From Actinomycetota bacterium (GTDB taxonomy: Bacteria; Actinomycetota; CADDZG01; JAHWKV01): a DNA stretch of 64,000 nucleotides. Shown here one piece after another: positions 11,678-31,772 of this stretch (its first letter is position 1; every line of letters begins with the position of its first letter). The notes below the pieces were generated by a model. That model was not told the origin of the DNA. It ran no database searches and saw only the letters and a program-made list of their open reading frames with translations. The translations under genes and the position numbers were made by a program. The stretch lies in assembly GCA_030447305.1 (NCBI GenBank), contig JAUJPC010000002.1:190815-254814 (forward strand), read 5' to 3'.

Positions 11678-11680
11678 CCG

Positions 11681-12433: not shown

Positions 12434-12473
12434 CTCACCGCCGGTGCCCGCGACCCGGTCACCCGCAGACCTG

Positions 12474-14453: not shown

Positions 14454-15680
14454 TCAGATCGAGCGCAGATCTCCGGCCAGAGCTGCCAGCCATTGAGTGC
14501 TCGCGGGCGCGTCCCAGTCGCGGCCCGTACCCATCACCGGCCGGCCTTCTCGAATGACCAGCTCAACCGCCGGGTGTCCGTCCACGCTGCCGACAATGAC
14601 CAGGTCCGCACGTGTCCCCGCTTCGATGCGACCCCGGTCGTTCAAGCCCACCAGGCGAGCCGGGCCTTCGGTGACCAGGCGAACCGCACGATCCAGCGAG
14701 CACACACCCTCCTGTGCCAGGCTGTACGGGGCAGCCAGCAGCGATGGCAGGTGGTAATCGGAGACCAGCCCGTCGAGCAGCCCGTCGGCCAGGGCCTCCC
14801 TGGCCGACAGACCCCTCATGTGAGAACCTCCCCGGCGTGCGTTCGGGGCCCCCATGACCACCCCGAGCCCGGCCTCCCGGGCCGCCGTGACGCCCTCGGA
14901 GTTGATGGGAAACTCAGATATCGCCACGCCCAGTTCCGCGGCCCGGGCCACCGCGGCGGCGGAATCATCGTCGTGCGACGCCAGGGTGGTACCGGTTGCA
15001 GAAGCCCGGTCGGCCACCCCGGCGCGGCGATCCTCGATCTCCGGCAGAAGGGCCTTTTGCCGGGCCAGGATGTCGGCGAGGTCTTCCTCCGGAGCCCCCA
15101 TCTGACCTGCATAGTAGCGGCGCCAATCCGCTTCCGATGTGAACTGGCCCTGCCCTGGGCTGTGGTCCATGTAGGACATGAGGGCGACGGCCGGGCTGGA
15201 GGAGAGTGCCGTCCCTACCTCGAACTGACGTGCGGTCAGCTCCACTCGAAGATGGATGAAGGTGTCGGCCCGCAGCCGGTTCCTCCAGCGCTCCACCATT
15301 CTTACCAGGCGTACCGCATCCTCGGCGTCGTCCGTTCGGGCAGGGTTGTTGCCGACCCTGCCGCAGACGAAATGGGTGGTGACCCCGTGTGAGATCGCCT
15401 CGGCGTCCACCTGTAGGAGAGCTCCACCCAGCGGCTCGTGGCTCCCCGGCCGCGGCCGCATGCGCTCCTCCAGGCAGTCGGAGTGGAGCTCCACTATGCC
15501 CGGGAGCAGGTCGACGTTGCCCAGGTGGAACCGCTCTATCCCGACTGGGGCGCTTGTACTTACTTCCACTATCGTGGAACCCTCGATGGTGACCCAGCCG
15601 TCGCTCAGCTCCCCGTCGGCAGACAGGACTCTTGACGCATTAAGGGCAAACGGGTCTCGCAACTGTCCGTTCCGGCTCAC
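14454..15680 (-). CDS. phnM: Alpha-D-ribose 1-methylphosphonate 5-triphosphate diphosphatase PhnM
   Basis: A canonical PhnM of 408 residues. It hydrolyses the triphosphate made by PhnI-type chemistry to the 5-phosphoribosyl 1-phosphonate that PhnJ cleaves. Motifs: LLPGIVELHSD, SYMDHSPGQGQF, LASHDDDS, MGAPNARRGGSH and SDYHLPSLL. The GTG start at 15680-15678 overlaps the stop of the transglutaminase-like gene (GTGA). The frame is open upstream but that part lies inside the previous gene. Last gene of the minus-strand phn operon. Confidence 0.93.
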   Translation of the reverse strand: MSRNGQLRDPFALNASRVLSADGELSDGWVTIEGSTIVEVSTSAPVGIERFHLGNVDLLPGIVELHSDCLEERMRPRPGSHEPLGGALLQVDAEAISHGVTTHFVCGRVGNNPARTDDAEDAVRLVRMVERWRNRLRADTFIHLRVELTARQFEVGTALSSSPAVALMSYMDHSPGQGQFTSEADWRRYYAGQMGAPEEDLADILARQKALLPEIEDRRAGVADRASATGTTLASHDDDSAAAVARAAELGVAISEFPINSEGVTAAREAGLGVVMGAPNARRGGSHMRGLSAREALADGLLDGLVSDYHLPSLLAAPYSLAQEGVCSLDRAVRLVTEGPARLVGLNDRGRIEAGTRADLVIVGSVDGHPAVELVIREGRPVMGTGRDWDAPASTQWLAALAGDLRSI

Positions 15681-16342
15681 CCGGCCACCTCCAAGCGATC
15701 CAAACCGCCCGCCGTTGTGCCCGTGGTGAGGGACAGGGCAGCGCACGCCGCGGCCTTGGCCTCGACGCAACGCTCGGCCACCTGGGACAGCCGGGAGGCA
15801 GAGCACCCTGCGAACCGGGAATCGGTTGCGGTAAGCAGCTGGGCCATGGCCAGCCGCACCGGCCGCTCGCCGCCGCGGTGGGAGGCTGGAAACAACGCCA
15901 GATAACGTTCAACCTGCCGGCTCTTTCCCGTGCAGTTTCCCTGGGTCAGATCGATAAAGGGGCCGTCTGCCTGAAGGAAGCAGTGGATGTTGGGCACGAA
16001 GGGCAGGCCTGCTTCGGCAAGTACGGGTTCTACCTCGGGCACCAGCGAAGCGTCCAGGGCGTAGACGCCCCAGACCAGCCCCACCACAAGGTCCAGCTCT
16101 TTCGAGAGGGCAATGAAGGCTGCGTGCTTTGAGGTGCAGTCGCCAAACCCGTCTTCGAACACCCGCAGGTGCCCGGTTCGGCGGCTGGGAGCGTAGGGCA
16201 GGTCCCGCAGCCAGGCAGCCGCGGCGTGCACACTCGTCGATCCTCGGTGGTGAAAAGCCCGGGAGGCCGGCCCGGCGGCGGCATCGATCGAACGATCGGG
16301 CAGTGTCTCGACCTCCTGAAACTCGACCAGCAATCCGTTCAT
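15677..16342 (-). CDS. Transglutaminase-like protein inside the phn operon
   Basis: A 221-residue protein without signal peptide. A Cys-His-Asp series in transglutaminase order is visible: C69 (GFGDCTSKHAAF), H120 (PNIHCFLQ) and D131 (FIDLTQGN). Proteins with a G-C-T/S-S-K-H-A core belong to small transglutaminase-like groups whose substrates are mostly unknown. The C-terminus holds a Cys/Ala-rich helix. Its ATG follows the GNAT-IMPase stop by one base, and its stop overlaps the phnM start, so it is clearly translated with phosphonate genes. It is not a known C-P lyase component. Function (amide hydrolysis, transfer or protein modification) is open. Confidence 0.6.
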   Translation of the reverse strand: MNGLLVEFQEVETLPDRSIDAAAGPASRAFHHRGSTSVHAAAAWLRDLPYAPSRRTGHLRVFEDGFGDCTSKHAAFIALSKELDLVVGLVWGVYALDASLVPEVEPVLAEAGLPFVPNIHCFLQADGPFIDLTQGNCTGKSRQVERYLALFPASHRGGERPVRLAMAQLLTATDSRFAGCSASRLSQVAERCVEAKAAACAALSLTTGTTAGGLDRLEVAG

Positions 16343-16343
16343 C

Positions 16344-17615
16344 TCATCCCCCAGCCAGGATGGGATCGTGAACCCCGGCCGGCTGCAGGCCCATAAGCCT
16401 CACGGCTTCCTCGCGGGAGTGGGCTGCAACGATCCGGTAGATGCGCCGGGGATCGGTGGAGATGAGCGGCAGCCGTCCGGCGATGCCTATGGCGGAAGCT
16501 CCGGCTTCGCGCAACACCGCAGCGGGTCCGGCGAGGTCGTGCGAGTGAACCACGGCGCGGTCCCGCCCGACAAACGCCGCGGCCGATCCGTCGGCGACCC
16601 GGCACAGGTCTGCCGCCGTGCTGCCCGAGATGCGGATGCGGCTGTAACCGGGTAACACCCGGGCCAGGTTTCCGGGCTCCGGACTGGGGACTATGACCAA
16701 ATCTGAGGGCCCCGGCTCCGCCCGGTGCCCGTCGACCCAGGCGCCCTCCCCCCGCAGCGCCCACCAGCGCCGGCCGCTGGTGTGATCGGTCACCATCCCC
16801 GCCAGCGGCTCGCCGTCCTTGACCAACCCGATGGCAGTGGACCAGGGCGGCAGGCCGGCACGCTGGTTGCGGCTGCCGTCAAGGGGATCGAGCGTTATCC
16901 AGGCCTCTCCCGGCTCCGGCAGGCGCCCCCCGATCACTCCCGACTCCTCGCTGATGATGGGAACTCCGAGGCCGGCCAGGCAGGCCACGGCGGCGTTCTC
17001 GGCAGACCAGTCCGGGCCGGTGGTGTGCTCTCCGTCGGCACCGATCCCGGCTGCCGGGTGATTGGATTCGGATAGGGCCAGTGCCACCGCACTCAGCGCC
17101 TGAGCAGCCATTTTGAGGAACTGGTGACCCACCGATTCCCCTGTGGTGCCGTACCCGGCACCCGGTACCGGCCGGTGAAACCGGGCGGCCGGAGCTTCCT
17201 CAACAAATCCCATGGCCCGGTAGAACGCGTGAGCGTCGCTGCGCCAGTGGGAACTTACCAGGGCCAGCGCCGAACATCCCAGCAGAGATGTCGCCTCGTC
17301 GGCGGCCTGCAGCAGTGCCCTGCCGACTCCTCTCCGCCGGGTCTCGGGGTCGATCATCAAAGCGCTCACCCAGGCCTCCCGCCCGCCGCGGAACAGCGAA
17401 AGGTGAGAGCGTAGTTCGATGTAGCCCACCACTTCGCCCGCCACCTGGGCCACCAATGCCCGGACCTCAGGGCTTTGGAGGGTGGCCAGGTACATGGCCT
17501 GAGCCCCGGGGTTTCGGGCGTCCGCTTCGTGGCCGCCCATCTGTTCGGTCAGGCGCAGCACATCGCCGGCATCCCGGGGTTCGGCGGGCCGGACGTTCAC
17601 CTGAAGAACGGTCAT
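16344..17615 (-). CDS. GNAT acetyltransferase fused to an inositol-monophosphatase-family phosphatase
   Basis: Residues about 1-155 are a GNAT N-acetyltransferase (acetyl-CoA loop RRRGVGRALL; AFYRAMGF). Residues about 160-423 are an IMPase/FBPase-family phosphatase with metal ligands in ISEESG, DPLDGSRN (canonical DPLDGTxN) and HDLAGPAAVLREAG. ATG 17615 overlaps the permease stop (ATGA). In known systems PhnO is an aminoalkylphosphonate N-acetyltransferase, and a phosphatase of this fold acts on sugar or nucleotide phosphates. With PhnN and PhnP absent, the phosphatase half could process ribose phosphate products of C-P cleavage; that is inference. Confidence 0.8.
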   Translation of the reverse strand: MTVLQVNVRPAEPRDAGDVLRLTEQMGGHEADARNPGAQAMYLATLQSPEVRALVAQVAGEVVGYIELRSHLSLFRGGREAWVSALMIDPETRRRGVGRALLQAADEATSLLGCSALALVSSHWRSDAHAFYRAMGFVEEAPAARFHRPVPGAGYGTTGESVGHQFLKMAAQALSAVALALSESNHPAAGIGADGEHTTGPDWSAENAAVACLAGLGVPIISEESGVIGGRLPEPGEAWITLDPLDGSRNQRAGLPPWSTAIGLVKDGEPLAGMVTDHTSGRRWWALRGEGAWVDGHRAEPGPSDLVIVPSPEPGNLARVLPGYSRIRISGSTAADLCRVADGSAAAFVGRDRAVVHSHDLAGPAAVLREAGASAIGIAGRLPLISTDPRRIYRIVAAHSREEAVRLMGLQPAGVHDPILAGG

Positions 17616-19330
17616 CGGAGCTGGGTCCTCAACCATCCGGACAGCCGTTCGATGGAGTAAACGCTAACGAATATCAGCATCAGGATGGCTCCGGTAACCT
17701 CCCAACGCAGAACTCGGAGGGAGTTGAAGAGCAGAAATCCGATCCCGCCCCCTCCAACCAACCCAAGGATGGTCGAGGTGCGGATGTTGATGTCCAGCAC
17801 GTACAGCACGTGTCCCGCGACGGCCGGCAGCGCCTGCGGGAGCAGCGAAGTGATCATCTCCTGGGGGCGCGTTGCCCCGGTGGCCATCACCGCCTCCCGG
17901 GGGCCCGGCCGGACCTCCTCCAGGGAGTCGGAGACCAGCTTGGCCAGAAATCCCACACTGTAGATCGACAGGGCGAAGGCCCCCGCCATGGGTCCCAGGC
18001 CGATGGCGGCCACAAAGATGACCGCCAGTATCAGCTCCGGGATTCCGCGCCACACCACCAGCCCGTAGCGAGCCGCGGCGTACACCCACTTGGCGGGGGC
18101 CACATTGCGTGCCGCCATCAGGGCGATGGGGATCGACAGTGCGGCTCCGATGATTGTGGCCACGAAGCCGATGGCAATGGTCTCGACCATGGCCGAGAAG
18201 ATCTGGCCTGCCAGGGCGGCATCGATCTGCGAAGGGATCACCTTTGCGGCCACCCGCCCCAGGTCGGGGAGCGCCCACAGCACCTCCAAGGGTGAGAGCT
18301 GCAGTTCGCCGAATGCGTAAACGATCAAGCCCAGGAACATCGCAAGGTAGGCGGCGGCGGTCAGGCGCTCGCGGGTCCAGGGTGGGCGGAGAGATCCGGA
18401 TGCCGGCCGGCCCTTCGCTGGGGTGGGCTGCGGACCTTGACCGAGCGCCTTCCTTCGAGGCCTCCTGCTACCCAGCCCCATCCAGCCGTGGGAGGGGAGG
18501 ACTACCGCGGCATCGCCCAGAAGGGCTCTGCGGATACGCCCGGAGACCAGCTCGAAGAGGCCGATCATGATCACAATCACAATCACAATCCCCAGTGCTT
18601 GAGGGTAGAGAAGACCTCCAAAGGCGTCTCTCAGGGCGAAGCCGATCCCTCCTGCTCCGACAAATCCGAGCACCACCGAAGTTCTCAGGTTGATATCCAG
18701 CCGGTACAGACAAATGCCGACGAACGAGGGGAGTATCTGCGGCCATACCCCGGCGGTGAAGGCCTGCAGGCGGTTGGCCCCAACCGCCTCGGTGGCATGC
18801 CGGGGGCCTTCGTCGATGTTCTCGATGGCGTCGGCTATCAGCTTTCCGATCATGCCGATTGAGTGAAGCGCGATGGCGATCACGCCGGGCAGCACTCCGA
18901 TGCCCAGAACCCGGACAAAGATGGCGGCAAAGACCAGGTCCGGTATCGCCCGGCAGGCGCTTATGAAGCCGCGGGCTGCGCCGGCGGTCCAGCGGTTGGG
19001 GGAGATGTTGCGGGCGGCCAGACCTCCGAGGGGAATGGATACCGCCGCAGCTAGGGCGGTCCCGACAAACGCCATGAGGAAGGTCTCGAGCGCCAGCTCC
19101 AGGACCCGCCCGCCGTCGATCAGCCGAGGGGGCAGCATGCGTTCCATGAGGTTGCGCACATCGGACACCCCCGCGAGGAGTGAGGTGGGGACCATCCCCA
19201 GGTCGCGCCACGACGCTGCGGTTGCCACGGCCAGGCAGGCACCTGTAACTGCCAGAAGGACGCGCCGCTTGGTCCAGGGGGGCGTCAGAGCAAGCATTCC
19301 CGATGCACCCAAGCGGTTATCCAGACGCAC
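17612..19330 (-). CDS. phnE: Fused double permease of the phosphonate ABC transporter (PhnE1-PhnE2)
   Basis: A 572-residue protein that contains two complete PhnE-type permease units. Unit 1 spans about 30-275 (loop AVGANRLQAFTAGVWPQ; RTSVVLGFVGAGGIGF) and unit 2 about 320-572 (MATGATRPQEMITSLLPQA; RTSTILGLVGGGGIGF). The linker (about 280-315) is rich in Arg, Lys and Pro and should be cytoplasmic. Two fused units would make a pseudo-heterodimeric translocation pore on one chain. GTG 19330 directly follows the phnC stop. No frameshift was noticed across this long gene. Confidence 0.9.
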   Translation of the reverse strand: MRLDNRLGASGMLALTPPWTKRRVLLAVTGACLAVATAASWRDLGMVPTSLLAGVSDVRNLMERMLPPRLIDGGRVLELALETFLMAFVGTALAAAVSIPLGGLAARNISPNRWTAGAARGFISACRAIPDLVFAAIFVRVLGIGVLPGVIAIALHSIGMIGKLIADAIENIDEGPRHATEAVGANRLQAFTAGVWPQILPSFVGICLYRLDINLRTSVVLGFVGAGGIGFALRDAFGGLLYPQALGIVIVIVIMIGLFELVSGRIRRALLGDAAVVLPSHGWMGLGSRRPRRKALGQGPQPTPAKGRPASGSLRPPWTRERLTAAAYLAMFLGLIVYAFGELQLSPLEVLWALPDLGRVAAKVIPSQIDAALAGQIFSAMVETIAIGFVATIIGAALSIPIALMAARNVAPAKWVYAAARYGLVVWRGIPELILAVIFVAAIGLGPMAGAFALSIYSVGFLAKLVSDSLEEVRPGPREAVMATGATRPQEMITSLLPQALPAVAGHVLYVLDINIRTSTILGLVGGGGIGFLLFNSLRVLRWEVTGAILMLIFVSVYSIERLSGWLRTQLR

Positions 19331-21917: not shown

Positions 21918-22628
21918 ATGACAGTTACCTACCAGGCCCTGGCCGACGAGCTGGCAACGTCCCTGATTCGGCAGGATCCCGGTTCACGGGTCGTATCGGA
22001 GAATGAGCTGAGCCGCCTTCACGCGGTCAGCCGGCTCACCGCGAGAGCGGCCCTCCAGGAGTTGGAACGACGCCACCTGGTGCGTCGGGTCCGCGGCTCC
22101 GGAACCTTTGTTGCGCGGCGGGTGGAGTACCGAATCGCCGCCGACATGCCTCCCAGCTTCCAGGCCACGGTCCGCCGCTCCGGCGGGATGCCCAGTATGC
22201 GGCTGGTCGATAGCCGTGCGGTGGCGCCACCGCCGGCCATCCGCACCGGGTTGAAGCTCAGCCCCGCCGCCAAGACATTGCGCCTGACCCGGCTAGGATC
22301 CGTCGACGGTCTGCTGGCCAGTCACACCACCACCTGGTTGCCGCTCGGCCTCGCACCCACCCTGGCCGATCGCCTGGGAGGAGCAGCCTCTTTGATGCAG
22401 GAGCTCACCGATCTGGGGTTCGATCCGCGGCGCCGCTGGTACCGGGCGGAGATGGATGTTGTTCCCGTCCATATCGCGGAGGAGCTGGAGATAGAGGGAC
22501 GTCCACTGGTCTGGCACACGACCGGGCTGAACGGCGACGGTCCAAACGGCAGGCTGCTGGAGATGACCGAAGCGTGGATGCGGCCGGACGTGTTTCAGGT
22601 CCGGCTCGAGCTCGGCTCGGCACCATGA
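21918..22628 (+). CDS. phnF: GntR/HutC-family transcriptional regulator PhnF
   Basis: A 236-residue repressor. The N-terminal winged helix has SENELSRLHAVSRLTARAALQELE and RVRGSGTFV, typical of GntR proteins. The C-terminal part is a UTRA-type effector domain of the HutC/PhnF branch (LLASHTTTWLP; EMTEAWMRPDVFQV). It heads the phnG-L operon and its stop overlaps the phnG start (ATGA). The inverted repeats at 21228 and 21880 are its likely binding sites. Effector unknown; phosphonates or a pathway intermediate are candidates. Confidence 0.9.
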   Translation: MTVTYQALADELATSLIRQDPGSRVVSENELSRLHAVSRLTARAALQELERRHLVRRVRGSGTFVARRVEYRIAADMPPSFQATVRRSGGMPSMRLVDSRAVAPPPAIRTGLKLSPAAKTLRLTRLGSVDGLLASHTTTWLPLGLAPTLADRLGGAASLMQELTDLGFDPRRRWYRAEMDVVPVHIAEELEIEGRPLVWHTTGLNGDGPNGRLLEMTEAWMRPDVFQVRLELGSAP

Positions 22629-23053
22629 CGCAAACTCTCTCCGCGGAACGACGGGCCGAGCTGCTTTCGGTGGCCGATCGCGATCCGCTCATCGCTTTGG
22701 CCGAACGGTGCATCTCATCCTCTTCCCCCGAGGTCACTCTGCCTCCCGAGGTGGGCACGATTGCGATGGTTGTCAGGGAACCCATAGTCCACGATCAGCT
22801 GATCCTCGCCGACATCCTCGTGACCCGTGCCGAGGTGTCGTGGGAAGGGACCAGCGGATGGGCTATGCGGCTGGGGAACGATCGCGTCGCCACTCTGGCC
22901 GCGGCAGTTTGCGACGCCGAGGCACAGGCCGGCCGGCCCCTCTGCCGTGAAGTCGAAGACCTGTGCCGGGCAGCCGCTTCCGGCGAGGCATCGTCCATGG
23001 AAGCGCAGTGGGCCGAGCTGGCACCAACCGTCGTCAGTTTCGAGGAGATGTGA
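22625..23053 (+). CDS. phnG: C-P lyase subunit PhnG
   Basis: A 142-residue subunit of the C-P lyase core complex PhnGHIJ, which with PhnI attaches phosphonate to the ribose of ATP with loss of adenine. Family features: RRAELLSVADRDPLIALAE at the N-terminus, VREPIVHDQLILADILVTRAEV in the middle, and MRLGNDRVATLAAAVCDAE near the end. ATG 22625 overlaps the phnF stop. Confidence 0.93.
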   Translation: MTQTLSAERRAELLSVADRDPLIALAERCISSSSPEVTLPPEVGTIAMVVREPIVHDQLILADILVTRAEVSWEGTSGWAMRLGNDRVATLAAAVCDAEAQAGRPLCREVEDLCRAAASGEASSMEAQWAELAPTVVSFEEM

Positions 23054-23058
23054 GGGCA

Positions 23059-23646
23059 ATGTCCACTATCAAGATATCGACCCGGCTTGGACCTTCCGCC
23101 ACCCACAGTATCTTCCGGACAATTCTGAAGGCACTGGCGAACCCGGGCCGCGTTTTGGAGCTGGATACTCCGCCGGAGTTTCCTCCTGCCGCTCTTCTGC
23201 CACTTGTGCTGTCCGACTTCACCTGCACTGTGGCGCTCGTTGGAGAAGGCGCGGCCGAGGCCGAGGTCTGGCTGGCTGCTGCAACCGGGGCCATCATGGC
23301 TCCGCCCGCCATGGCCGATCAGGTGGTGGTTCTGGACCCGACCGCAGCTTCGCCCCTTCTGATCGAGGATCTGAGAAGGGGCACGTCCCTGGCGCCCGAA
23401 GAGGGAGCGCGCCTGGCTCTGGCGGTCTCGGAGTTGGAGTCGGGGCCGCTTCGACTGAGATTGAGCGGGCCGGGCGTCCGCAACCATATGGACCTGGCTT
23501 TGGCCGGGCCGTCGGCGGCTGCCTTCAGTGCGCTGAGACGAGTCAATGCGGCGTTTCCAATGGGCATCGACACCTGGCTGTTTGCGCCGGACGGACGCAT
23601 CGCCGCACTCTCGCGAAGCACCCAAATAATCGTGGAAGACATCTAG
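23059..23646 (+). CDS. phnH: C-P lyase subunit PhnH
   Basis: A 195-residue subunit of the core complex; PhnH forms the outer subunits of the symmetric PhnGHIJ assembly. It starts with the family segment HSIFRTILKALANPGRV and has PLRLRLSGPGV and FPMGIDTWLFAPDGRIAALS near the end. ATG 23059 is preceded by GAGGG and lies five bases after the phnG stop. The stop directly abuts the phnI start. Confidence 0.92.
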   Translation: MSTIKISTRLGPSATHSIFRTILKALANPGRVLELDTPPEFPPAALLPLVLSDFTCTVALVGEGAAEAEVWLAAATGAIMAPPAMADQVVVLDPTAASPLLIEDLRRGTSLAPEEGARLALAVSELESGPLRLRLSGPGVRNHMDLALAGPSAAAFSALRRVNAAFPMGIDTWLFAPDGRIAALSRSTQIIVEDI

Positions 23647-24855
23647 ATGGGATACGTCGCCGCCAAGGGAGGCCTGGAGGCCATCCTGGCCGCCGAAGAT
23701 CTGGTTCGCCGGTCGAGGCTGTCGGGGTCGAGCCCCCTTCTTGGTATCGACCAGCTTCAGGAGAGGGCCCGTCTGGCGGTGGACCGGGTCATGGGGGAAG
23801 CGGGTCTGTGGGCACCTGAGCTGGCGGCCCGGGCATTCAGGCAGGCCGAGGGCGACGTCGTAGAGGCCGCCCACCTCCTTCGGGCGTTTCGCACGAACCT
23901 ACCGAGGTTCGCGATGACATCCGTAGTCGCCGCCGACGAGATGGTTCCTCTCAGGCGGATAGTGCCCGCCTACCGGACTCCGCCGGGCCCCCAGCTGCTG
24001 GGCCGGACGTCCGACTACACCGGCCGCCTGCTGGACCTGTCACCCGAGGCTCCGAGCAGCGAGCTCGAAGATGAAGGCCGCTCCTCCAACGCTACTGGAG
24101 CGGCCGCGACCAACGGCACGGGATCGACAGCCTCCGGGAATCCTGGTGGCGGCGAAGGAGGACTGACAACGCACCGCCGCCTCTACGAGCTGTTGCGGGA
24201 TCTGGACCTGGTCGTCGACCGTAGGCGTGACATCGCAGCAGGCGACGATCCTGAGCCCTACGACATCACCCGTCTCCCGGTACGTCCAGGCGTTCCTCGT
24301 TCGGCCCGCCTGGCGGTAATGGCCCGGGCGGAGACCGGCGCCCTGGTGAACCTGTGGTACCGCAACATCCTGGGAACCGACATGCACCTGCACGAGGTAA
24401 CGCTTGGAGAGGTTCGCCACGGTCTTCTGCCGCTCCCGGTGATCCATCCGCACACCGGCCGGCCTGTGGTTGTGGGCCGTATTCGAGCCACCGAGGCAGA
24501 GGCTATCGAGGACCTGAGTGGGGAGGGACGCGACCGCAGCCGGTTCGACGTCGGTTACGGAGTCTGCGTGGGGCACAACGAGCGCAAGGCGATCGCCATG
24601 GCGAACCTCGACATTGCGGTGGAGCTTGACGCCGGTAAGGGTTCGTTGGAGCAGACCGTTCTCATGACCACCGACGCTCTGGATTCCTCCGGCTTTCTGG
24701 AACACCTCAAGCTGCCGCACTACGTGACGTTTCGATCGATGGTCGAACGCAAGCTGGCCGTTCGGGAGGCTGCTGCCCAAAAGGTCGGCGACGACCATGA
24801 AGCCGCTCCGATGGATCGGGCGCCCGACGCGGTTCTGGCGGGCGAGCCGGCATGA
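23647..24855 (+). CDS. phnI: C-P lyase subunit PhnI
   Basis: A 402-residue PhnI, the nucleosidase subunit that works with PhnG, PhnH and PhnL to make ribose 1-phosphonate 5-triphosphate from ATP and phosphonate. It opens with MGYVAAKGGLEAI, the family hallmark, and has DITRLPVRPGVPRSARL, EVTLGEVRHGLLPLPV, YGVCVGHNERKAIAMA and LPHYVTFRSMV. A Gly/Asn/Ser-rich linker lies near residues 135-175 and looks like a species-specific loop. The stop overlaps phnJ (ATGA). Confidence 0.95.
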   Translation: MGYVAAKGGLEAILAAEDLVRRSRLSGSSPLLGIDQLQERARLAVDRVMGEAGLWAPELAARAFRQAEGDVVEAAHLLRAFRTNLPRFAMTSVVAADEMVPLRRIVPAYRTPPGPQLLGRTSDYTGRLLDLSPEAPSSELEDEGRSSNATGAAATNGTGSTASGNPGGGEGGLTTHRRLYELLRDLDLVVDRRRDIAAGDDPEPYDITRLPVRPGVPRSARLAVMARAETGALVNLWYRNILGTDMHLHEVTLGEVRHGLLPLPVIHPHTGRPVVVGRIRATEAEAIEDLSGEGRDRSRFDVGYGVCVGHNERKAIAMANLDIAVELDAGKGSLEQTVLMTTDALDSSGFLEHLKLPHYVTFRSMVERKLAVREAAAQKVGDDHEAAPMDRAPDAVLAGEPA

Positions 24856-25733
24856 GCCTGAACGCACTCCTGGAAGACACGGGATCGGCGGACAACGGCT
24901 ATGGATCCGGCATCATGGACGAGCACACCAAGCGGGACATCCGCCGGGCTCTTCTGAGCGCGGTCGCCGTCCCCGGGTATCAGGTGCCCTTCGGGTCGCG
25001 GGAGATGCCGGTGGCAAGGGGTTGGGGATCGGGAGGACTGCAGATAACCCTCGCTATCGTCGGGGACGCCGATGTGGTGAAGGTTATCGACCAGGGCGAC
25101 GATGCAGGGGTCAATGCAACCAACCTGCGCCGGCTGATTGTTGGGTCCACCGGCGCCGCCGAGACCACGGTCACCGCTGAGGCGTCGATCATCCAGACCC
25201 GCCACCGGATTCCGGAGGAGCCCCTGAAGTCCGATCAGATTCTGGTCCTTCAGGTGCCGGTGCCTGAGCCCCTTCGGGGCGTCGAGCGCGATATGCGGGA
25301 GCTTCGCCGCATGCACGCCGAGGACGACTACGCCCGCCTGTGGGTGAGCCTGTACGAGGACAAGGTGCGCAACGGCGTGATAACCCGGACCACCGGGTAT
25401 CCGTGCATGATCGGCGGTCGCTACGTCATGGCGACCACGCCGATTCCACGCTGGGACTGCCCGAAGCTGCACCAGGCCCATCACCTGTCCCTGTTCGGCG
25501 CCGGCCGGGAGAAGCGCATCTATGCCGTGCCGCCCTACACCGATGTCGAGCCGGTCACCTTCGACGACGTGCCGTTCGAGGTGGAGCGTTCACCCGGGCG
25601 ATGTGACAGATGCGGTGCCGTCGGTTGGACAGAGTCCTTCCTGATCGAGGTTCCCAACTCCCGCACCTGGGTTTGTTCGGACACCGATTACTGCGCCCGG
25701 AGGCGCTTGAAGGACCGCCGGGTGAAGGCGTGA
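24852..25733 (+). CDS. phnJ: Carbon-phosphorus lyase PhnJ
   Basis: The radical SAM enzyme that breaks the C-P bond of 5-phosphoribosyl 1-phosphonate, releasing the alkane and a ribose cyclic phosphate. The 293-residue protein keeps the iron-sulfur Cys set C251, C254, C275 and C281 (C-x2-C-x20-C-x5-C), close to the E. coli spacing. The conserved VPGYQVPFGSREMP with Gly42 matches the glycine proposed to carry a radical. Start ATG overlaps phnI; the end overlaps phnK (GTGA). Presence of an intact PhnJ means the cluster is catalytically credible. Confidence 0.96.
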   Translation: MSLNALLEDTGSADNGYGSGIMDEHTKRDIRRALLSAVAVPGYQVPFGSREMPVARGWGSGGLQITLAIVGDADVVKVIDQGDDAGVNATNLRRLIVGSTGAAETTVTAEASIIQTRHRIPEEPLKSDQILVLQVPVPEPLRGVERDMRELRRMHAEDDYARLWVSLYEDKVRNGVITRTTGYPCMIGGRYVMATTPIPRWDCPKLHQAHHLSLFGAGREKRIYAVPPYTDVEPVTFDDVPFEVERSPGRCDRCGAVGWTESFLIEVPNSRTWVCSDTDYCARRRLKDRRVKA

Positions 25734-26509
25734 GGGAAACGGAAACCTGGGCACTTTCGGTCCAGGGTCTGACCAAGAGCTATGGCGGCCGTTTGGCGGT
25801 GGACGATGTTTCGTTCAATGTGGCGCCCGGAGAGGCGTTGGGGATAGTAGGAGAGTCCGGTTCCGGCAAGACCTCGGTGCTTCGGTGCTTGGCGGGAGAT
25901 CTCGACGAGGATTCCGGCCGGGCCTATATGAGCGGCCTCGACGGAGGGCAGACCAATATCTTCTCACTCACCCCCGCCGAGCGGCGGGCTCTCAGGGTGA
26001 GCCGGCTCGCAATGGTCTATCAGGATCCCGCGCTTGGTTTGGATCTAGGAATCAGCGCAGGGGGCAACGTGGCAGAGCGGCTGACCGCGGCGGGCTGGAG
26101 GTCGTTCGGGGCGATCCGGCAGCGGGCTGCCCATCTGCTGGAGCGCACGGAGGTTCCCCGGGAGCGTATGGATGACCTGGTCTCCACCTTTTCCGGGGGC
26201 ATGCGGCAAAGGGTCCAGCTGGCCAAGGCGCTGGCTACCAACCCTCCCGTGCTGCTGCTGGACGAGCCCACCACCGGGCTGGATGCCTCGGTGGCGGCCG
26301 GCGTCCTGGATCTCATCCGCGACCTTCTGGCAGAGTTCAGACTGGCTGCCGTTGTCGTGTCGCACGACTTTTCGGTCATCGAGCTCCTGACCCGGCGGGT
26401 CATGGTGATGCACAACGGCCGCGTGGTGGAAACCGGTCTGACCGACCAGCTTCTCGCCGATCCCCAGGACGCCTACAGCCAGCGGCTGGTCGCCGCGGCA
26501 AGGAGCTAG
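25730..26509 (+). CDS. phnK: C-P lyase ABC-type ATPase PhnK
   Basis: A 259-residue ABC ATPase without permease partner. In E. coli, PhnK docks on PhnJ in the core complex. Features: Walker A GESGSGKTS, QDPALGLD, FSGGMRQRVQLAKALA, LLLDEPTTGLDASV and VVVSHDFSVIELL. The GTG start at 25730 overlaps the phnJ stop; an upstream in-frame start would lie deep in phnJ. Confidence 0.94.
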   Translation: MRETETWALSVQGLTKSYGGRLAVDDVSFNVAPGEALGIVGESGSGKTSVLRCLAGDLDEDSGRAYMSGLDGGQTNIFSLTPAERRALRVSRLAMVYQDPALGLDLGISAGGNVAERLTAAGWRSFGAIRQRAAHLLERTEVPRERMDDLVSTFSGGMRQRVQLAKALATNPPVLLLDEPTTGLDASVAAGVLDLIRDLLAEFRLAAVVVSHDFSVIELLTRRVMVMHNGRVVETGLTDQLLADPQDAYSQRLVAAARS

Positions 26510-26511
26510 CC

Positions 26512-27249
26512 ATGCCCGTTGGGCTGCTCCAGATTCGGGGACTGAGCAAAGTGTTCGTCCTGCACAACATCGCAGAGCGCCGGGTGGTCGCGCTGGATGG
26601 AGTGGACATCGATGTTCCGGAGGGTGAGCACGTTGCTCTGGCCGGCGACAGTGGGGCCGGAAAGTCCACCCTGCTCCGTTGCGTTTACCGTACGTGCGTG
26701 CCGACGTCGGGTTCCATCCGGTTCGGCGGTATTGAGTTGACAAGCCTCTCCGACTCGCAGATGGCCGACCTGCGGGAGGTGCACATCGGGTACGTTTCGC
26801 AGTTCTTGAGAGCGGAGCCCCGCCGCGGCGTGGTCGATGTAGTCGCCCGCTCCGGCATGCGGGGAGGCCTCGACCCCGAGGCCGCATCCGAAGCGGCAGG
26901 TGATGCGCTGCGCCGGGTCGGCATCACCGAGCCGCTGTGGGACACCTACCCGTCGTTGCTGTCGGGCGGGGAGAAACAAAGGGTCGGCCTGGCGGCCGCC
27001 ATCGTGCGTGCTCCCAAGTTGCTGCTTCTCGACGAGCCGGTGGCCTCACTGGACCCAGCCAATCGGGAGTCGGTCCTTGACCTCATCGCCTCGCTGCGCG
27101 AGCGGGGGGTGACCGTGCTCTCGGTCTTCCACGACACCGGAGCCATCGCCCGCCTGGCGGACCGGGTCGTGCTGCTGAGGAGCGGTCGCATCGTGGAGCA
27201 GGGCCCCGCGGAACATATTCTGCCGCTCCTGGCTGCGGTGCCGGCTTGA
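26512..27249 (+). CDS. phnL: C-P lyase ABC-type ATPase PhnL
   Basis: A 245-residue ABC ATPase of the PhnL group, which associates with PhnK on the C-P lyase core. The N-terminal segment LSKVFVLHNIAERRVVALDG is typical. Walker A GDSGAGKST, IGYVSQFLRAEPRRG, LLSGGEKQRVGLAAA, LLLDEPVASLDP. Its stop overlaps the start of the HD-MOSC gene (TTGA). Confidence 0.94.
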   Translation: MPVGLLQIRGLSKVFVLHNIAERRVVALDGVDIDVPEGEHVALAGDSGAGKSTLLRCVYRTCVPTSGSIRFGGIELTSLSDSQMADLREVHIGYVSQFLRAEPRRGVVDVVARSGMRGGLDPEAASEAAGDALRRVGITEPLWDTYPSLLSGGEKQRVGLAAAIVRAPKLLLLDEPVASLDPANRESVLDLIASLRERGVTVLSVFHDTGAIARLADRVVLLRSGRIVEQGPAEHILPLLAAVPA

Positions 27250-28376
27250 GCAATCCCGCCGGAGTCTCCGGGGAGGTCTCGATTGAGGATGTCCTTCGGG
27301 AGATCGTGGCCGCGTTGAAGGCTGTAGAGCATCTCCCCTATAACACCGAAGCGGTGGATCAGCTACAGCACGCCCTGCAGAGCGCCGCCCTGGCTCGCGC
27401 GGCCGGCGCCGACTCCGCCACGGTGGTGGCCGCGCTTCTCCACGACATCGGCCGCTCCCCCTTGGTTTCAGGCGATGATGCGCACCACGACGAGGTGGCC
27501 GAGGCGTGGATGGCGAACCGGGTGGGGGCTCGAGCCGCCTGGCTGGCCGGGCAGCACGTGGCTGCCAAGCGGTATTTGAGGGCGGCCGATCCCGCTTATC
27601 CGGTGTCGCCGACCTCCGAGCGGACGCTGGCCGAGCAGGGAGGACCGATGACCGAGGCCGAGGTGGCTGAGTTCCTCAGGCACCCCTGGTGGCGGGAGGC
27701 CGCCGAGCTGAGAAGGTGGGACGACGCCGCAAAGGATCCAACCCGGCAAGTTCCCGGGTTGGAGGAGTACGAGGAAGACCTGAGGGTGATGATCCGCTCG
27801 ACTCTGGTCGTGCCAGAGAACCCCCTGCACCTGACTTTCAGCGAGCTGATGGCCGGTCTGGACGAGGTACGAAAGTCGCCGCTCGACCGAGGAACTGTGG
27901 AGCTGGTCGTGCGCCGGCCCCAGGACGGCGAAAGGGAGGTCCTGCCGGAGGCCATGCTAACCGTGGACGAGGGAATCGTGGGAGACAACTGGAAGACACG
28001 TGGAAGCTCCCAAACCGCCGATGGAGGATCGCACCCTCTAAAGCAGCTGACGGTTATGGGCTCTCGCGCCATCGCTCTGATTGCAGCGGAAAAGGATCGC
28101 TGGCAGCTCTCCGGCGACCAGCTTTTCGTCGATTTTGACCTCAGTGTTGACAATCTGCCATCCGGTAGCAGACTCAAGCTGAATGATGCGGTCATTGAGA
28201 TAACGCCGTCTCCCCACACCGGGTGCATGAAGTTCATCAACCGGTTCGGTGCCGAGGCGTTCCGGTTCGTTAACACCGCCGAGGGGAAAAGACTGCGGCT
28301 TCGAGGGGCGAACGCGGTAATCGTCGTCCCCGGCACGGTTCGAGCAGGCGACCCTGTCGAAAAACTAGGTGTTTAG
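27246..28376 (+). CDS. HD-domain (PhnZ/TIGR03276-like) protein fused to a MOSC domain
   Basis: Residues about 10-185 form an HD domain like the phosphonate-associated HD oxygenases. Y32-x2-E35, H42, H66-D67, H80/H81, H104 and D159/D160 are present in the order known for PhnZ, the di-iron enzyme that oxidises 2-amino-1-hydroxyethylphosphonate. Residues about 205-376 form a MOSC domain with the conserved Cys327 (PHTGCMKF); MOSC domains carry sulfur or bind molybdenum cofactor adducts in other proteins. The TTG start overlaps the phnL stop. I know of no described role for this combination. No break in the frame was found between the domains. Confidence 0.75.
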   Translation: MSNPAGVSGEVSIEDVLREIVAALKAVEHLPYNTEAVDQLQHALQSAALARAAGADSATVVAALLHDIGRSPLVSGDDAHHDEVAEAWMANRVGARAAWLAGQHVAAKRYLRAADPAYPVSPTSERTLAEQGGPMTEAEVAEFLRHPWWREAAELRRWDDAAKDPTRQVPGLEEYEEDLRVMIRSTLVVPENPLHLTFSELMAGLDEVRKSPLDRGTVELVVRRPQDGEREVLPEAMLTVDEGIVGDNWKTRGSSQTADGGSHPLKQLTVMGSRAIALIAAEKDRWQLSGDQLFVDFDLSVDNLPSGSRLKLNDAVIEITPSPHTGCMKFINRFGAEAFRFVNTAEGKRLRLRGANAVIVVPGTVRAGDPVEKLGV

Positions 28377-28424: not shown

Positions 28425-29114
28425 TCAGGCACTCCCGACGAGGGGAGCCAGCCTTTGAATCCTTTTGTCCAGGAGGTCGGCAGCCGCCTCGAATGCGTTG
28501 GGTTCGGCTGCCGCCACCGGGTCCGGGATAGACCAGTGAAGATGCGCCCGGTCCCCTCCGCCTCGCAGTTCTTCGTGGGCACGGTCACAGACGGTGATAA
28601 GTAGGTCCGTGGAAAGCCGATCGGGGATCGGAGCCGGTCGGACGTCGACGAGGCTCAGCCCCCGCCGCTCGGCCGCCGTCACCGCCCCGGCGTAAACCCG
28701 CTCCCTAGGCTGGGTGCCGCCGCTGCAGGCTGGTACCTCCACGCCGGTGTCGTTCCAAAGGGCAGCAGCGATCTGAGAGCGGGCCGCATTCTCCGTGCAG
28801 ACGAAAATCACCCGCCCTGCCCGCAGAACGCCTCCCATGCCAAGATCTTCGAGCGTTGCCGGGACCAGTCGCACGTAGCGGCGACGACGATCCCCCTGCG
28901 ACTCCGAACGCTCGATCAACTTAAGCCTGGCGAGGACGTGCAGGTGATGAGCGAGCAGGTTCGAATCCATTCCCAGCGTGGCTCGCAATTCGGAGGGGGA
29001 GCGGTCGGACAGCACCAGCTCATCAATTATGGCGAGTCGATGAGGTTCCGCGAGTGCCGCATGGATCCCCGCACGTCTGAGAGTCCTGTCACCGAGAATT
29101 GACTCAATCATCAT
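28425..29114 (-). CDS. ArsR-type regulator fused to a low-molecular-weight phosphatase/arsenate reductase domain
   Basis: Residues about 1-95 form an ArsR winged helix (SPSELRATLGMDSNLLAHHLHVL). Residues about 100-229 form an LMW-phosphatase/ArsC domain with the P-loop C106-TENAA-R112-S and an Asp-Pro near the end (SIPDPVAA). Such fusions occur in actinobacterial ars loci. Whether the enzyme part reduces arsenate or only senses it is unknown. It diverges from arsC with only 42 bases between, so the start-codon palindrome (29103-29118) probably controls both. Confidence 0.85.
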   Translation of the reverse strand: MMIESILGDRTLRRAGIHAALAEPHRLAIIDELVLSDRSPSELRATLGMDSNLLAHHLHVLARLKLIERSESQGDRRRRYVRLVPATLEDLGMGGVLRAGRVIFVCTENAARSQIAAALWNDTGVEVPACSGGTQPRERVYAGAVTAAERRGLSLVDVRPAPIPDRLSTDLLITVCDRAHEELRGGGDRAHLHWSIPDPVAAAEPNAFEAAADLLDKRIQRLAPLVGSA

Positions 29115-29118
29115 TGAG
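29103..29118. promoter_or_regulatory. Inverted repeat over the start of the ArsR-ArsC fusion
   Basis: CTCAAT (29103-29108), CATC, ATTGAG (29113-29118) is a perfect 6-bp inverted repeat covering both possible ATG codons of the minus-strand gene, in the 42-base divergent gap to arsC. Likely ArsR-type operator. Confidence 0.5.
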
Positions 29119-29156
29119 ATAGATTATACGAGGACCAACGGACAGGAGGAGGTTCT

Positions 29157-29849
29157 GTGACGGATCTTGACGAGCTTTCGGTTGAACAGACGCTGGCGCT
29201 TAGAACAGCGGCGGTAACACTTCAGCGTGACTTTGAAGGAGTCTTCGGCAAGGAGACCATCGAGCTCTTCCTTCAAACCAGCTTCGATCAGTTCGCCGGC
29301 AAGGCCACAGTTAGAAACTTCATTCCGCTGCTGGCGGAGCGCTTCGCCCGGCAACGCTTAAAGGCACTGGCAAAGGTCGAAGGCCGCTCGGATGACGGCT
29401 TGCCGATAGTGCTTTTTCTTTGCACCCATAACGCCGGCCGCTCGCAGATGGCGCTCGGGTGGTTCAATGCGCTGGCCGGCGAACACGCCACAGCATGGTC
29501 TGGAGGCTCCGAGCCTGGAGATGACCTCAACCCCGCCGCAGTCGACGCGATGCGGGAGGCCGGCATCGACATCGCAAAGGAGTTCCCCAAGCCGTGGACC
29601 GAGGAGATTCTCAAAGCCGCCGACGTGGTTGTGACCATGGGTTGTGGGGATGCCTGTCCCGTGTTCCCCGGAAAACGCTACGAGGATTGGGCGCTCGAGG
29701 ATCCGGCAGGCAAGTCGTTGGAAGAGGTCCGGCCGATTCGTGACGAGATCCGCAGGCGCGTACGCAAGCTTCTTGAGGAACTGGAGATTCCGGTCAGCCA
29801 GACCGGGGACCAGGACAGAGTCGACCCGTCGTCATCAGGAATTGGTTGA
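29157..29849 (+). CDS. arsC: Arsenate reductase, mycothiol-type, with N-terminal three-helix domain
   Basis: A 230-residue protein. An N-terminal helical domain (1-75; VFGKETIELFLQTSFDQF) precedes a LMW-phosphatase-like ArsC domain with P-loop C89-THNAG-R95-SQ and the segment VTMGCGDACPVFPGKRYEDW. This layout is known from actinobacterial arsenate-mycothiol transferases and related ArsC. The GTG start follows AGGAGGAGG by four bases. It converts arsenate to arsenite in the cytoplasm, feeding export and ArsM. Convergent with arsR. Confidence 0.9.
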   Translation: MTDLDELSVEQTLALRTAAVTLQRDFEGVFGKETIELFLQTSFDQFAGKATVRNFIPLLAERFARQRLKALAKVEGRSDDGLPIVLFLCTHNAGRSQMALGWFNALAGEHATAWSGGSEPGDDLNPAAVDAMREAGIDIAKEFPKPWTEEILKAADVVVTMGCGDACPVFPGKRYEDWALEDPAGKSLEEVRPIRDEIRRRVRKLLEELEIPVSQTGDQDRVDPSSSGIG

Positions 29850-29853
29850 CACA

Positions 29854-30213
29854 TTAACCTTTTGAGGGTGGCCCCAGGGCCGCCGTGAGTGCTTTAAGCC
29901 GGCCCGGCACTGCCCAGTACCAGACCCACGAACCTCGACGCTGCCGGTCCACCAACCCGGCTTCGTACAGCACCTTCAGGTGGTGGCTGACCGTGGGTTG
30001 GGAGCGTCCGAGTGGCTCAACCAACGAGCAGGCACAAACCTGACCCGGCTGAGAGGCGATGAGAGCAAAAAGCCGTAATCGTGCGGGATCTGCCAGGGCC
30101 GCAAAGCCCTGGGCGAGCTGGACCGCCTCCGATTCCTGGAGTGCGGAGGTAAGCTCGGCCGCGCGGCACGCGTCGACCACCTCGCCCGGCTGCCCATTTG
30201 TTGGGATGTTCAT
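29854..30213 (-). CDS. arsR: ArsR-family arsenite-responsive repressor
   Basis: A 119-residue winged-helix repressor. The arsenite-site motif is V-C60-A-C62-SLVEPLGRSQPTVSHHLKVL in the helix before the recognition helix, as in classical ArsR. It diverges from the MIP channel gene; two near-identical operator-like repeats in opposite orientation lie between them (30222 and 30257). Confidence 0.92.
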   Translation of the reverse strand: MNIPTNGQPGEVVDACRAAELTSALQESEAVQLAQGFAALADPARLRLFALIASQPGQVCACSLVEPLGRSQPTVSHHLKVLYEAGLVDRQRRGSWVWYWAVPGRLKALTAALGPPSKG

Positions 30214-30221
30214 ATAACCAT

Positions 30222-30237
30222 ATTGACGCCCGTCGAT
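30222..30237. promoter_or_regulatory. ArsR operator-like repeat, copy 1
   Basis: ATTGACGCCCGTCGAT is an imperfect palindrome. Its reverse-orientation partner at 30257-30272 matches it at 13 of 16 positions. It lies just before the arsR start. Confidence 0.6.
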
Positions 30238-30256
30238 CTTAAGGGCAAGATGCTAT

Positions 30257-30272
30257 ATCGACATTCGTCAAT
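30257..30272. promoter_or_regulatory. ArsR operator-like repeat, copy 2
   Basis: ATCGACATTCGTCAAT; its reverse complement ATTGACGAATGTCGAT differs from copy 1 only in the three central bases. Located 54 bases before the MIP channel start, so the pair can serve both divergent promoters. Confidence 0.6.
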
Positions 30273-30325
30273 GTGGGAGGTCCTGCATTCCTGCTCAAGC
30301 GATAGGTCCGTCGATAGGCAAGCGC

Positions 30326-31021
30326 ATGCTCGCCGAGTTTTTGGGCGCGGCAATGCTGCTGATTGCGATCATCGGTTCAGGAATTATGGCGTCGCGGCTT
30401 TCGCCCGATGACGTCGGCCTGCAGCTCTTGGAGAACGCCGCCGCGACCGCGGCTGCCTTGGTGGCAATCATCCTCGCGGTTGGACCCGTCTCAGGCGCAC
30501 ATCTGAACCCGGTCGTCACCCTGGCAGACATGGTCTTCGGCGGGCTGAGCCGGCGGGACGCCGGCGCTTACGTTGTTGCTCAGCTGCTGGGAGGGGCCTT
30601 CGGAGCGGTGGTTGCCAACCTCATGTTTGACCTGCCTGCCATCGAGCTTTCCGTCAGGTCCCGTAGCTCCGGTGCTCTCTGGCTGGCCGAGAGCGTTGCC
30701 ACCTTCGGCCTGCTGCTGGTGGTCTTCGGGGTGGTGCGTTCGGGCAGGTCTTCGGTGGCGCCGTTCGCGGTTGGCTCATACATCGGGGCGGCGTACTTCT
30801 TCACCGCCTCCACCAGCTTTGCCAACCCTGCGGTCACGCTTTCCCGTACCCTCTCCGACACCTTTGCGGGAATCTCACCGTCGTCGGTCCCGGGCTTCGT
30901 GGTTGCGCAGCTAATAGGGGCCGGTCTGGCGGTACTGGTCGTCCTAATCCTCTACCCCAGCATCGGCGAAGTTGCATCGGCGGTTGTAGTTCCCAGCGCA
31001 GCGACCAGTGAGAAGGAGTGA
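30326..31021 (+). CDS. MIP-family channel (aquaglyceroporin-like) in the ars locus
   Basis: A 231-residue channel with two half-helix motifs, AHLNPVVT and FANPAVTLS, and six predicted membrane segments. MIP channels in ars operons (AqpS type) let arsenite leave the cell after arsenate reduction. No upstream in-frame start exists, so ATG 30326 is used. It is followed eight bases later by arsM. Confidence 0.88.
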   Translation: MLAEFLGAAMLLIAIIGSGIMASRLSPDDVGLQLLENAAATAAALVAIILAVGPVSGAHLNPVVTLADMVFGGLSRRDAGAYVVAQLLGGAFGAVVANLMFDLPAIELSVRSRSSGALWLAESVATFGLLLVVFGVVRSGRSSVAPFAVGSYIGAAYFFTASTSFANPAVTLSRTLSDTFAGISPSSVPGFVVAQLIGAGLAVLVVLILYPSIGEVASAVVVPSAATSEKE

Positions 31022-31028
31022 TGGTGAG

Positions 31029-31772
31029 ATGGAAGACTCACAGCGGGTGACAGAAGCAGTACGCAGCCGGTACGCGGAGCTCGCCGTGGTGGCTGATAGC
31101 GGGGGAGTGAGCTGCTGCGGTGAGGACAAGGAGGCATGTTTCGGCCCTGTCGCTTACGCCGAGGAGGAGCTGGCCGGCCTTCCGGCCGCTGCAACCAGAG
31201 CCTCGCTGGGCTGCGGGAACCCGATTGCGGTAGCGGACCTGCATGAGGGCGAGACCGTGCTGGACCTGGGTTCGGGGGGCGGTATCGACGTTTTGCTGTC
31301 CGCCACGCGGGTTGGTATCGGGGGCAAGGCTTATGGGTTGGACATGACCGACGAGATGCTGCAGCTTGCGCGCAAGAATGCGGAAGATGCCGGCGTGGAA
31401 AACGTCGAGTTTTTGAAAGGCCAAATAGAGGCGATTCCGCTTCCCGACGAGTCGGTTGACGTGATCCTGTCCAACTGCGTGATCAACCTCTCGTCTGACA
31501 AGGCCCGGGTTTTATCGGAAGCAGCCAGGGTTCTGCGTCCGGGGGGACGATTTGCGGTCACCGACGTGATCGCCGACGACGACATGGATGAGCCGACCCG
31601 CAAGGATATGCAGCAGTGGACGGGCTGTGTCGCCGGCGCGCTGACCAGGGCCGAGTTCGTTGGCCTGCTGGAGAAGGCAGGGCTGGAAAAGCCGGAGATC
31701 GTGGAGACCCATAGAGTGCACCATAGCGCGGGCTCCGCAATCATTCGTGCCCGCAAGCCGGCGAAGGCTTAA
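31029..31772 (+). CDS. arsM: Arsenite S-adenosylmethionine methyltransferase ArsM
   Basis: A 247-residue class I methyltransferase. SAM loop VLDLGSGGGIDVLL and the ArsM arsenic-binding cysteines C62 (LGCGNP), C150 (SNCVINLS) and C200 (WTGCVAGAL) are all present; the 50-residue gap between the last two equals that of characterised ArsM. N-terminal Cys29-Cys30 may take part in thiol exchange. It methylates arsenite to volatile or less retained forms. ATG 31029 is chosen over a GTG at 31008 that overlaps the channel gene. Confidence 0.93.
   Translation: MEDSQRVTEAVRSRYAELAVVADSGGVSCCGEDKEACFGPVAYAEEELAGLPAAATRASLGCGNPIAVADLHEGETVLDLGSGGGIDVLLSATRVGIGGKAYGLDMTDEMLQLARKNAEDAGVENVEFLKGQIEAIPLPDESVDVILSNCVINLSSDKARVLSEAARVLRPGGRFAVTDVIADDDMDEPTRKDMQQWTGCVAGALTRAEFVGLLEKAGLEKPEIVETHRVHHSAGSAIIRARKPAKA

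Follow-up and report, generated by a model that had tools for sequence, protein, structure and literature searches.

An HD domain of the PhnZ/TmpB oxygenase type, encoded at the end of a C-P lyase operon in an Actinomycetota bacterium, appears from its sequence to belong to a recurrent, little-described subclade of actinobacterial C-P lyase accessory proteins. It is joined in one reading frame to a MOSC domain, a combination that is so far unique and whose functional meaning is doubtful. The DNA analyzed, termed the window, is a 64-kb stretch of assembly GCA_030447305.1 (contig JAUJPC010000002.1, positions 190,815–254,814), and coordinates of its features are those of the window.

The fused reading frame and its gene cluster

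The original prediction of a single HD/MOSC frame that follows phnL and opens with a TTG codon is borne out by a stop-free frame of 376 residues (Table 1). Reads with a stop between the two domains had been named as one result that would overturn it; the frame in the assembly is continuous across the junction. The TTG codon at 27246–27248 overlaps the phnL stop codon, TGA at 27247–27249, in the four nucleotides TTGA. This overlap suggests that the HD-MOSC protein is made together with the C-P lyase. The TTG is not preceded by an evident Shine-Dalgarno sequence, and after position 28376 no terminator exceeds the strength expected by chance. The last helix of the HD half ends at residue 188, and about five codons separate it from the start of the MOSC half near the codon of Leu194 (CTG), the point at which homologous stand-alone genes begin in the alignment.

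Table 1. Positions of genes, domains and individual residues in the window
Feature	Position	Strand	Remarks
phnM1	14454..15806	-	TIGR02318 E 1.4e-94
GNAT acetyltransferase + inositol-monophosphatase-like (IMP) fusion	16344..17636	-	partners accompany Arg70 HD genes elsewhere
phnF-like GntR regulator	21918..22628	+	TIGR02325 E 4.9e-16
phnG	22574..23053	+	start approximate
phnH	22963..23646	+	start approximate
phnI	23647..24855	+	
phnJ, C-P lyase radical SAM subunit	24852..25733	+	PF06007 392 bits
phnK	25655..26509	+	start approximate
phnL	26512..27249	+	TIGR02324 E 9e-60
Fused HD-oxygenase-like/MOSC protein	27246..28376	+	376 aa, TTG start, single stop-free frame
HD half, PhnZ/TmpB-type domain	27246..27815	+	helices are residues 13-188
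Y32-x-x-E35, YxxE substrate latch (PhnZ Y24/E27)	27339..27350	+	alignment
H42, di-iron ligand (PhnZ H34)	27369..27371	+	alignment
H66-D67, HD pair (PhnZ H58-D59)	27441..27446	+	alignment
R70, replaces PhnZ His62, subclade marker	27453..27455	+	alignment
H81, di-iron ligand (PhnZ H80)	27486..27488	+	alignment
H104, di-iron ligand (PhnZ H104)	27555..27557	+	alignment; K108 follows (HVAAK)
D159, di-iron ligand (PhnZ D161)	27720..27722	+	alignment
In-frame internal ATG (M182)	27789..27791	+	AG-rich upstream; 12 codons before MOSC start
MOSC half (YuaD/YiiM-like)	27825..28376	+	residues ~194-376; Pfam MOSC, AF2 model
Cys327, invariant MOSC cysteine	28224..28226	+	16/16 homologues in alignment

On the forward strand, the genes that precede the fused frame have the order phnF-G-H-I-J-K-L; diverging from them on the opposite strand are phnE-C-D, the GNAT-IMP fusion, and phnM1. 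No further phn gene lies 3' of the fused frame in the stretch examined. A transglutaminase-like protein (15677–16342, reverse strand; Pfam E 0.035, no NCBIfam match) is encoded between phnM1 and the GNAT-IMP gene. Further out, phnD, phnC, and phnE occur a second time, accompanied by a separate phnM, at 10773–14443 on the forward strand, and an equivalent phnM2/E2/C2/D2 set adjoins the C-P lyase operon of Nocardia puris (locus L034). Directly after the C-P lyase cluster, the region 28425–31772 encodes low-molecular-weight phosphatases of the arsenate reductase type and a methyltransferase and resembles an arsenic island; its first gene (28425–29114) joins such a phosphatase to an ArsR-like regulator. 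The operon in the window includes no PhnY*/TmpA hydroxylase; one PhyH protein is encoded elsewhere in the genome.

The HD half and the Arg70 subclade

The HD half retains both the ligand set H...HD...H...H...D and the YxxE loop of the PhnZ/TmpB oxygenases, the motif and the role of the loop having been described for these enzymes (PMC8177086). In a MAFFT alignment of the domain with PhnZ, TmpB, and more than 50 relatives, 17 columns are invariant in 49 rows, and these include every di-iron ligand. The residues listed in the original prediction (Y32, E35, H42, H66-D67, and H104) are all present, and, where that list gave alternatives, the ligands are H81 rather than H80 and D159 rather than D160. 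Equivalents of Lys108, Ser126, Gln133, and Arg158 of PhnZ are likewise retained, and the sole consistent departure from the PhnZ site is the replacement of His62 by Arg70.

Searches by sequence and by structure agree on the family. Against the PDB, the HD half matches PhnZ with an E value of 6.7e-22 and TmpB with 3e-14, and the NCBIfam models matched are Phn-HD (TIGR03276, 6.6e-42), PhnZ1 (3e-33), and TmpB (4e-27). The scores fall under the curated cut-offs of all three models; for TIGR03276 the score is 143–145 bits versus a cut-off of 214.6. With the same model, an IMP-HD protein of the Arg70 subclade from Nocardia scores 146 bits and two fusion proteins of the His type score 206–211. The two halves of the protein were modelled separately with AlphaFold (AF2), and the HD model (pLDDT 94) superimposes on PhnZ in Foldseek with a TM score of 0.85. 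The top ten PDB matches are all PhnZ or TmpB (TM 0.82–0.85), and the next match has an E value of 0.07. An assignment to some unrelated family of HD hydrolases, which the original prediction would have accepted as its refutation, fails because the ligands, the profiles, and the fold are all those of PhnZ/TmpB; the comparison with PhnZ that it had proposed shows a conserved site with Arg70 as its one consistent departure.

PhnZ is the (R)-1-hydroxy-2-aminoethylphosphonate oxygenase. The HD half has the fold of PhnZ (PDB 4N71/4MLM) and is about 33% identical to it but differs in the Arg70 substitution, in the fusion to MOSC, and in its location in a C-P lyase operon without PhnY*. It also has the oxygenase family and residues in common with TmpB and the PhnZ1 of G. 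maris (NF049941, NF052439), but its scores are well below the curated cut-offs for these proteins and no TmpA/PhnY-type hydroxylase adjoins it, whereas many HD relatives (L048, L071, L076, L080) do adjoin one. Arg70 probably changes the HD pocket at its substrate end and may favor compounds that bear an additional negative group.

Genes for HD proteins of the Arg70 type adjoin or end the C-P lyase genes in Streptomyces, Nocardia, Pseudonocardia, Amycolatopsis, Nonomuraea, and the genomes G197 and G446; nearly all of the Arg70 HD genes in these genomes share a cluster with genes for C-P lyase. The usual order in most of these actinomycetes is phnF-G-H-I-J-K-L-M-IMP-HD. In the tree, the HD half pairs with that of G197 (L066; support 99/94) in a six-row clade that has arginine throughout (97/90), and the enclosing clade of 17 rows (100/99) has arginine in 15. 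The Arg70 HD proteins of the actinobacterial C-P lyase operons (L033–L035, L045, L054, L066, L124) thus share subclade, operon type, and arginine with that of the window; they stand alone or are fused to IMP and never to MOSC. In N. puris, IMP and HD form a single frame of 459 residues (L034, 7155–8534, forward strand), and in G446 a PhnM-GNAT-IMP frame of 822 residues (L124, 10453–12921, reverse strand) is followed by the HD gene. Fusions of the types GNAT-IMP, PhnM-GNAT-IMP, and IMP-HD therefore tie HD, IMP, GNAT, and PhnM to one pathway. The IMP protein could act on a ribose bisphosphate of the C-P lyase pathway; a literature search joining IMP with a C-P lyase operon returned no paper.

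The arginine is not exclusive to C-P lyase loci, as three genomes (L125–L127) carry an Arg70 HD gene with no C-P lyase in the stretch examined. In L125 (8654–12891, reverse strand) and L127 (9734–13074, reverse strand), it accompanies genes for a PhnA phosphonoacetate hydrolase and an aldehyde dehydrogenase-like protein, and L125 also carries a Rieske oxygenase related to glycine betaine monooxygenase. Many HD relatives of the His type adjoin genes for a PhyH hydroxylase (PhnY*-like) or for PhnX or an FAD oxidase; the Arg-type C-P lyase clusters yielded no PhyH gene.

The MOSC half and the origin of the fusion

The MOSC domain and its cysteine at position 327, both foreseen in the original prediction, are confirmed, the cysteine being conserved in all 16 homologues aligned and belonging to 25 invariant columns. 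Residues 194–376 align from end to end with stand-alone proteins of 170–190 residues at 44–57% identity (up to 60% in tblastn). The match to Pfam PF03473, at 20.1–20.5 bits (E 5e-4 to 7e-4), is below the gathering threshold of 22.7, but all 16 homologues match Pfam MOSC at E ≤ 0.1, the best at 6e-10; no NCBIfam model names this subfamily. The model (pLDDT 95) has the MOSC fold, with Foldseek TM scores of 0.66 to YuaD, 0.54 to YiiM, and 0.42 to human mARC1. The fold and the invariant cysteine are common to Bacillus subtilis YuaD and Escherichia coli YiiM (PDB 1ORU, 5YHI). Unlike YiiM, the domain ends in β-strands and lacks the C-terminal three-helix bundle, and it is attached to a putative HD oxygenase, whereas YuaD-type proteins, by published description, consist of the MOSC domain alone (PMC10637980). 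In mARC, YcbX, and YiiM, Moco is used near the invariant cysteine in the reduction of N-hydroxylated compounds (PMC5818509, PMC10637980). Because MoaA is present in the genome, the host probably makes Moco. The MOSC half is a complete YuaD/YiiM-like domain and is probably able to bind Moco through Cys327.

No phn genes were seen beside the stand-alone relatives, about 50–58% identical to the MOSC half, at the loci examined. The neighbors of 21 such MOSC genes include no recurrent phosphonate-related partner, the only widely common neighbors being response regulator genes at five loci. When the surroundings of other phn clusters were searched for MOSC genes (by tblastn for the type found in the window and by a regular expression for the YiiM type), only L066 of G197 gave one, a YiiM-like gene directly after phnM (17340–17844, forward strand) with an apparent frame change inside.

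The combination of HD and MOSC domains had been called unfamiliar in the original prediction, and no other example was found; the search that it had proposed, for the same two-domain order beside phnL, yielded no second case. The search covered 396 genomes of the phylum, 24 of the class, and 39, 299, and 395 of three other classes, more than 1,000 in all, in samples that overlap and of which the larger score the best few candidates per genome. A pattern scan of 84,980 species genomes found no HD-MOSC fusion besides that of the window, none was found in 72,556 plasmid records, and a literature search for PhnZ with MOSC gave no relevant paper. Some profile matches to MOSC genes, in G412, G507, G509, G799, and G798, seemed to extend back to query residues 151–175, but the three of these loci that were examined (L133–L135) have no HD domain by tblastn. 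Fusions of PhnZ-type domains to other partners do occur. A PhnX-like HAD phosphatase is joined to HD in L073 (5383–6597, reverse strand; 404 residues), and a PhnY*-like PhyH hydroxylase in L074 (9766–11403, reverse strand; 545 residues), a bacterial counterpart of PhoF, the fungal PhnY-PhnZ fusion. The PhnZ-type domain is part of a fusion in PhoF and L074 as in the window, but their partner is a substrate-making hydroxylase and here it is MOSC.

The simplest reading, for which the evidence is moderate, is that a C-P lyase/HD island was imported and its last gene fused in frame with a MOSC gene already resident in the genome, because none of the other 23 members of the class has C-P lyase (phnJ occurs in one of 24, the genome of the window), the MOSC half groups with MOSC proteins that stand alone in two order-mates (G006 and G007; 85/77), and base composition changes near the HD-MOSC junction. 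GC and GC3 are 0.679 and 0.81 in the HD part versus 0.600 and 0.69 in the MOSC part, a shift of about 2.5 sigma by a rough estimate; the phn genes are mostly at 0.64–0.68, and several other genes of the window are at 0.60–0.63. The fusion probably arose as a chance local event where the imported cluster ends. Several points weigh against regarding the MOSC half as a passenger: the support for the order-mate grouping is moderate, the size of the compositional shift is a rough estimate, phnD1, which is inside the island, has a GC content of 0.595, three genomes of the same genus have neither the HD nor the MOSC half, and in G197, whose HD protein is sister to that of the window, phnM is immediately followed by a MOSC gene of another kind.

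Proposed function and alternatives

We lean slightly toward a reading in which the HD half is an oxidative, C-P-cleaving accessory of C-P lyase and the MOSC half is a passenger. A phosphonate that already carries an α-hydroxyl would bind to the di-iron site of the HD half, the YxxE loop would swing away, O2 would bind to the second iron, and the C-P bond would be cleaved oxidatively to give phosphate and a carboxylate. At the end of the operon, the HD protein would serve hydroxyphosphonates beside the C-P lyase, with the GNAT and IMP proteins as partners, and the MOSC half would be a folded, Moco-capable passenger. The first part of this reading, the proposal in the original prediction of a phosphonate-type di-iron oxygenase that would provide a second, oxidative route to C-P cleavage, is well supported by the ligands, the YxxE loop, the predicted fold, and the operon context in many genomes. 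Against it are the loss of His62, the lack of PhnY*/TmpA in the operon, and the scores below the curated cut-offs; the IMP neighbors and the lack of PhnP also leave room for a phosphodiesterase role.

Such a role is the basis of an alternative in which the Arg70 HD proteins are hydrolases that open 5-phosphoribosyl-1,2-cyclic phosphate instead of PhnP, after which IMP would take off a phosphate and so replace the chemistry of PhnN. The host genome has no PhnP (TIGR03307) above the cut-off of 272 bits, the best score being 32.6; in the C-P lyase clusters seen, Arg70 HD genes never occur with PHP-type genes, which are found in L107–L112; and the fusion of IMP to HD in Nocardia and the lack of a hydroxylase partner in these operons point the same way. 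The missing PhnP and the six PHP clusters without Arg70 HD make this a serious rival. The mutual exclusion of HD and PHP is a weak argument, confounded with lineage, because five further C-P lyase clusters (L103–L106 and L113) have neither. Retention of all PhnZ ligands and of the substrate-site residues, including YxxE, together with the presence of Arg70 HD genes in PhnA clusters without C-P lyase within 20 kb (L125, L127), also argues against this role, and we judge it improbable. It is unlikely, too, that the protein is truly bifunctional, its MOSC half binding Moco and reducing an N-oxygenated phosphonate or something that the HD half forms, whether main product or by-product. Both halves are complete with their active-site residues, the host probably makes Moco, YiiM, YcbX, and mARC reduce N-hydroxylated compounds (PMC5818509, PMC10637980), and the YiiM-like gene of G197 follows phnM; but the fusion was found only once, the MOSC homologues were not seen beside phn genes, the fused protein has no electron transfer domain, and the G197 gene belongs to another subfamily. 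The proposal of a functional role for the MOSC half in phosphonate degradation is not supported: its relatives stand alone without phn neighbors, its nearest kin in the tree belong to members of the order that have no C-P lyase, and base composition changes close to the junction. Least probable of all is a fusion that is unused or unreal, either because a stop codon was lost in sequencing or assembly or because two proteins are made. The gene is known from one assembly, and a free MOSC protein could start at the internal ATG, which has an AG-rich upstream sequence and is 12 codons from the start of the domain. Opposing this are the continuous frame at the junction, the short spacing between the last HD helix and MOSC, and the quality of the assembly (seven contigs, 98% complete).

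Descriptions of phosphonate use generally treat C-P lyase and oxidative cleavage of the PhnZ type as two distinct routes. In the window and in many actinomycetes, C-P lyase and a PhnZ-type protein are encoded together without a dedicated hydroxylase; therefore, either the cells use hydroxyphosphonates supplied externally, hydroxymethylphosphonate for example, or the HD subclade performs another step of the C-P lyase pathway. It is a speculative and rather improbable extension that Arg70 HD, IMP, and GNAT form an unrecognized accessory module with a new substrate or step and that the HD-MOSC chimera combines a C-P oxygenase and a Moco reductase acting on the same class of compound. With the HD half as a putative oxygenase and the MOSC half as its passenger, the HD-MOSC protein would exemplify the fusion of an imported operon to a resident gene, and the change from histidine to arginine would offer a handle on substrate specificity in the PhnZ family.
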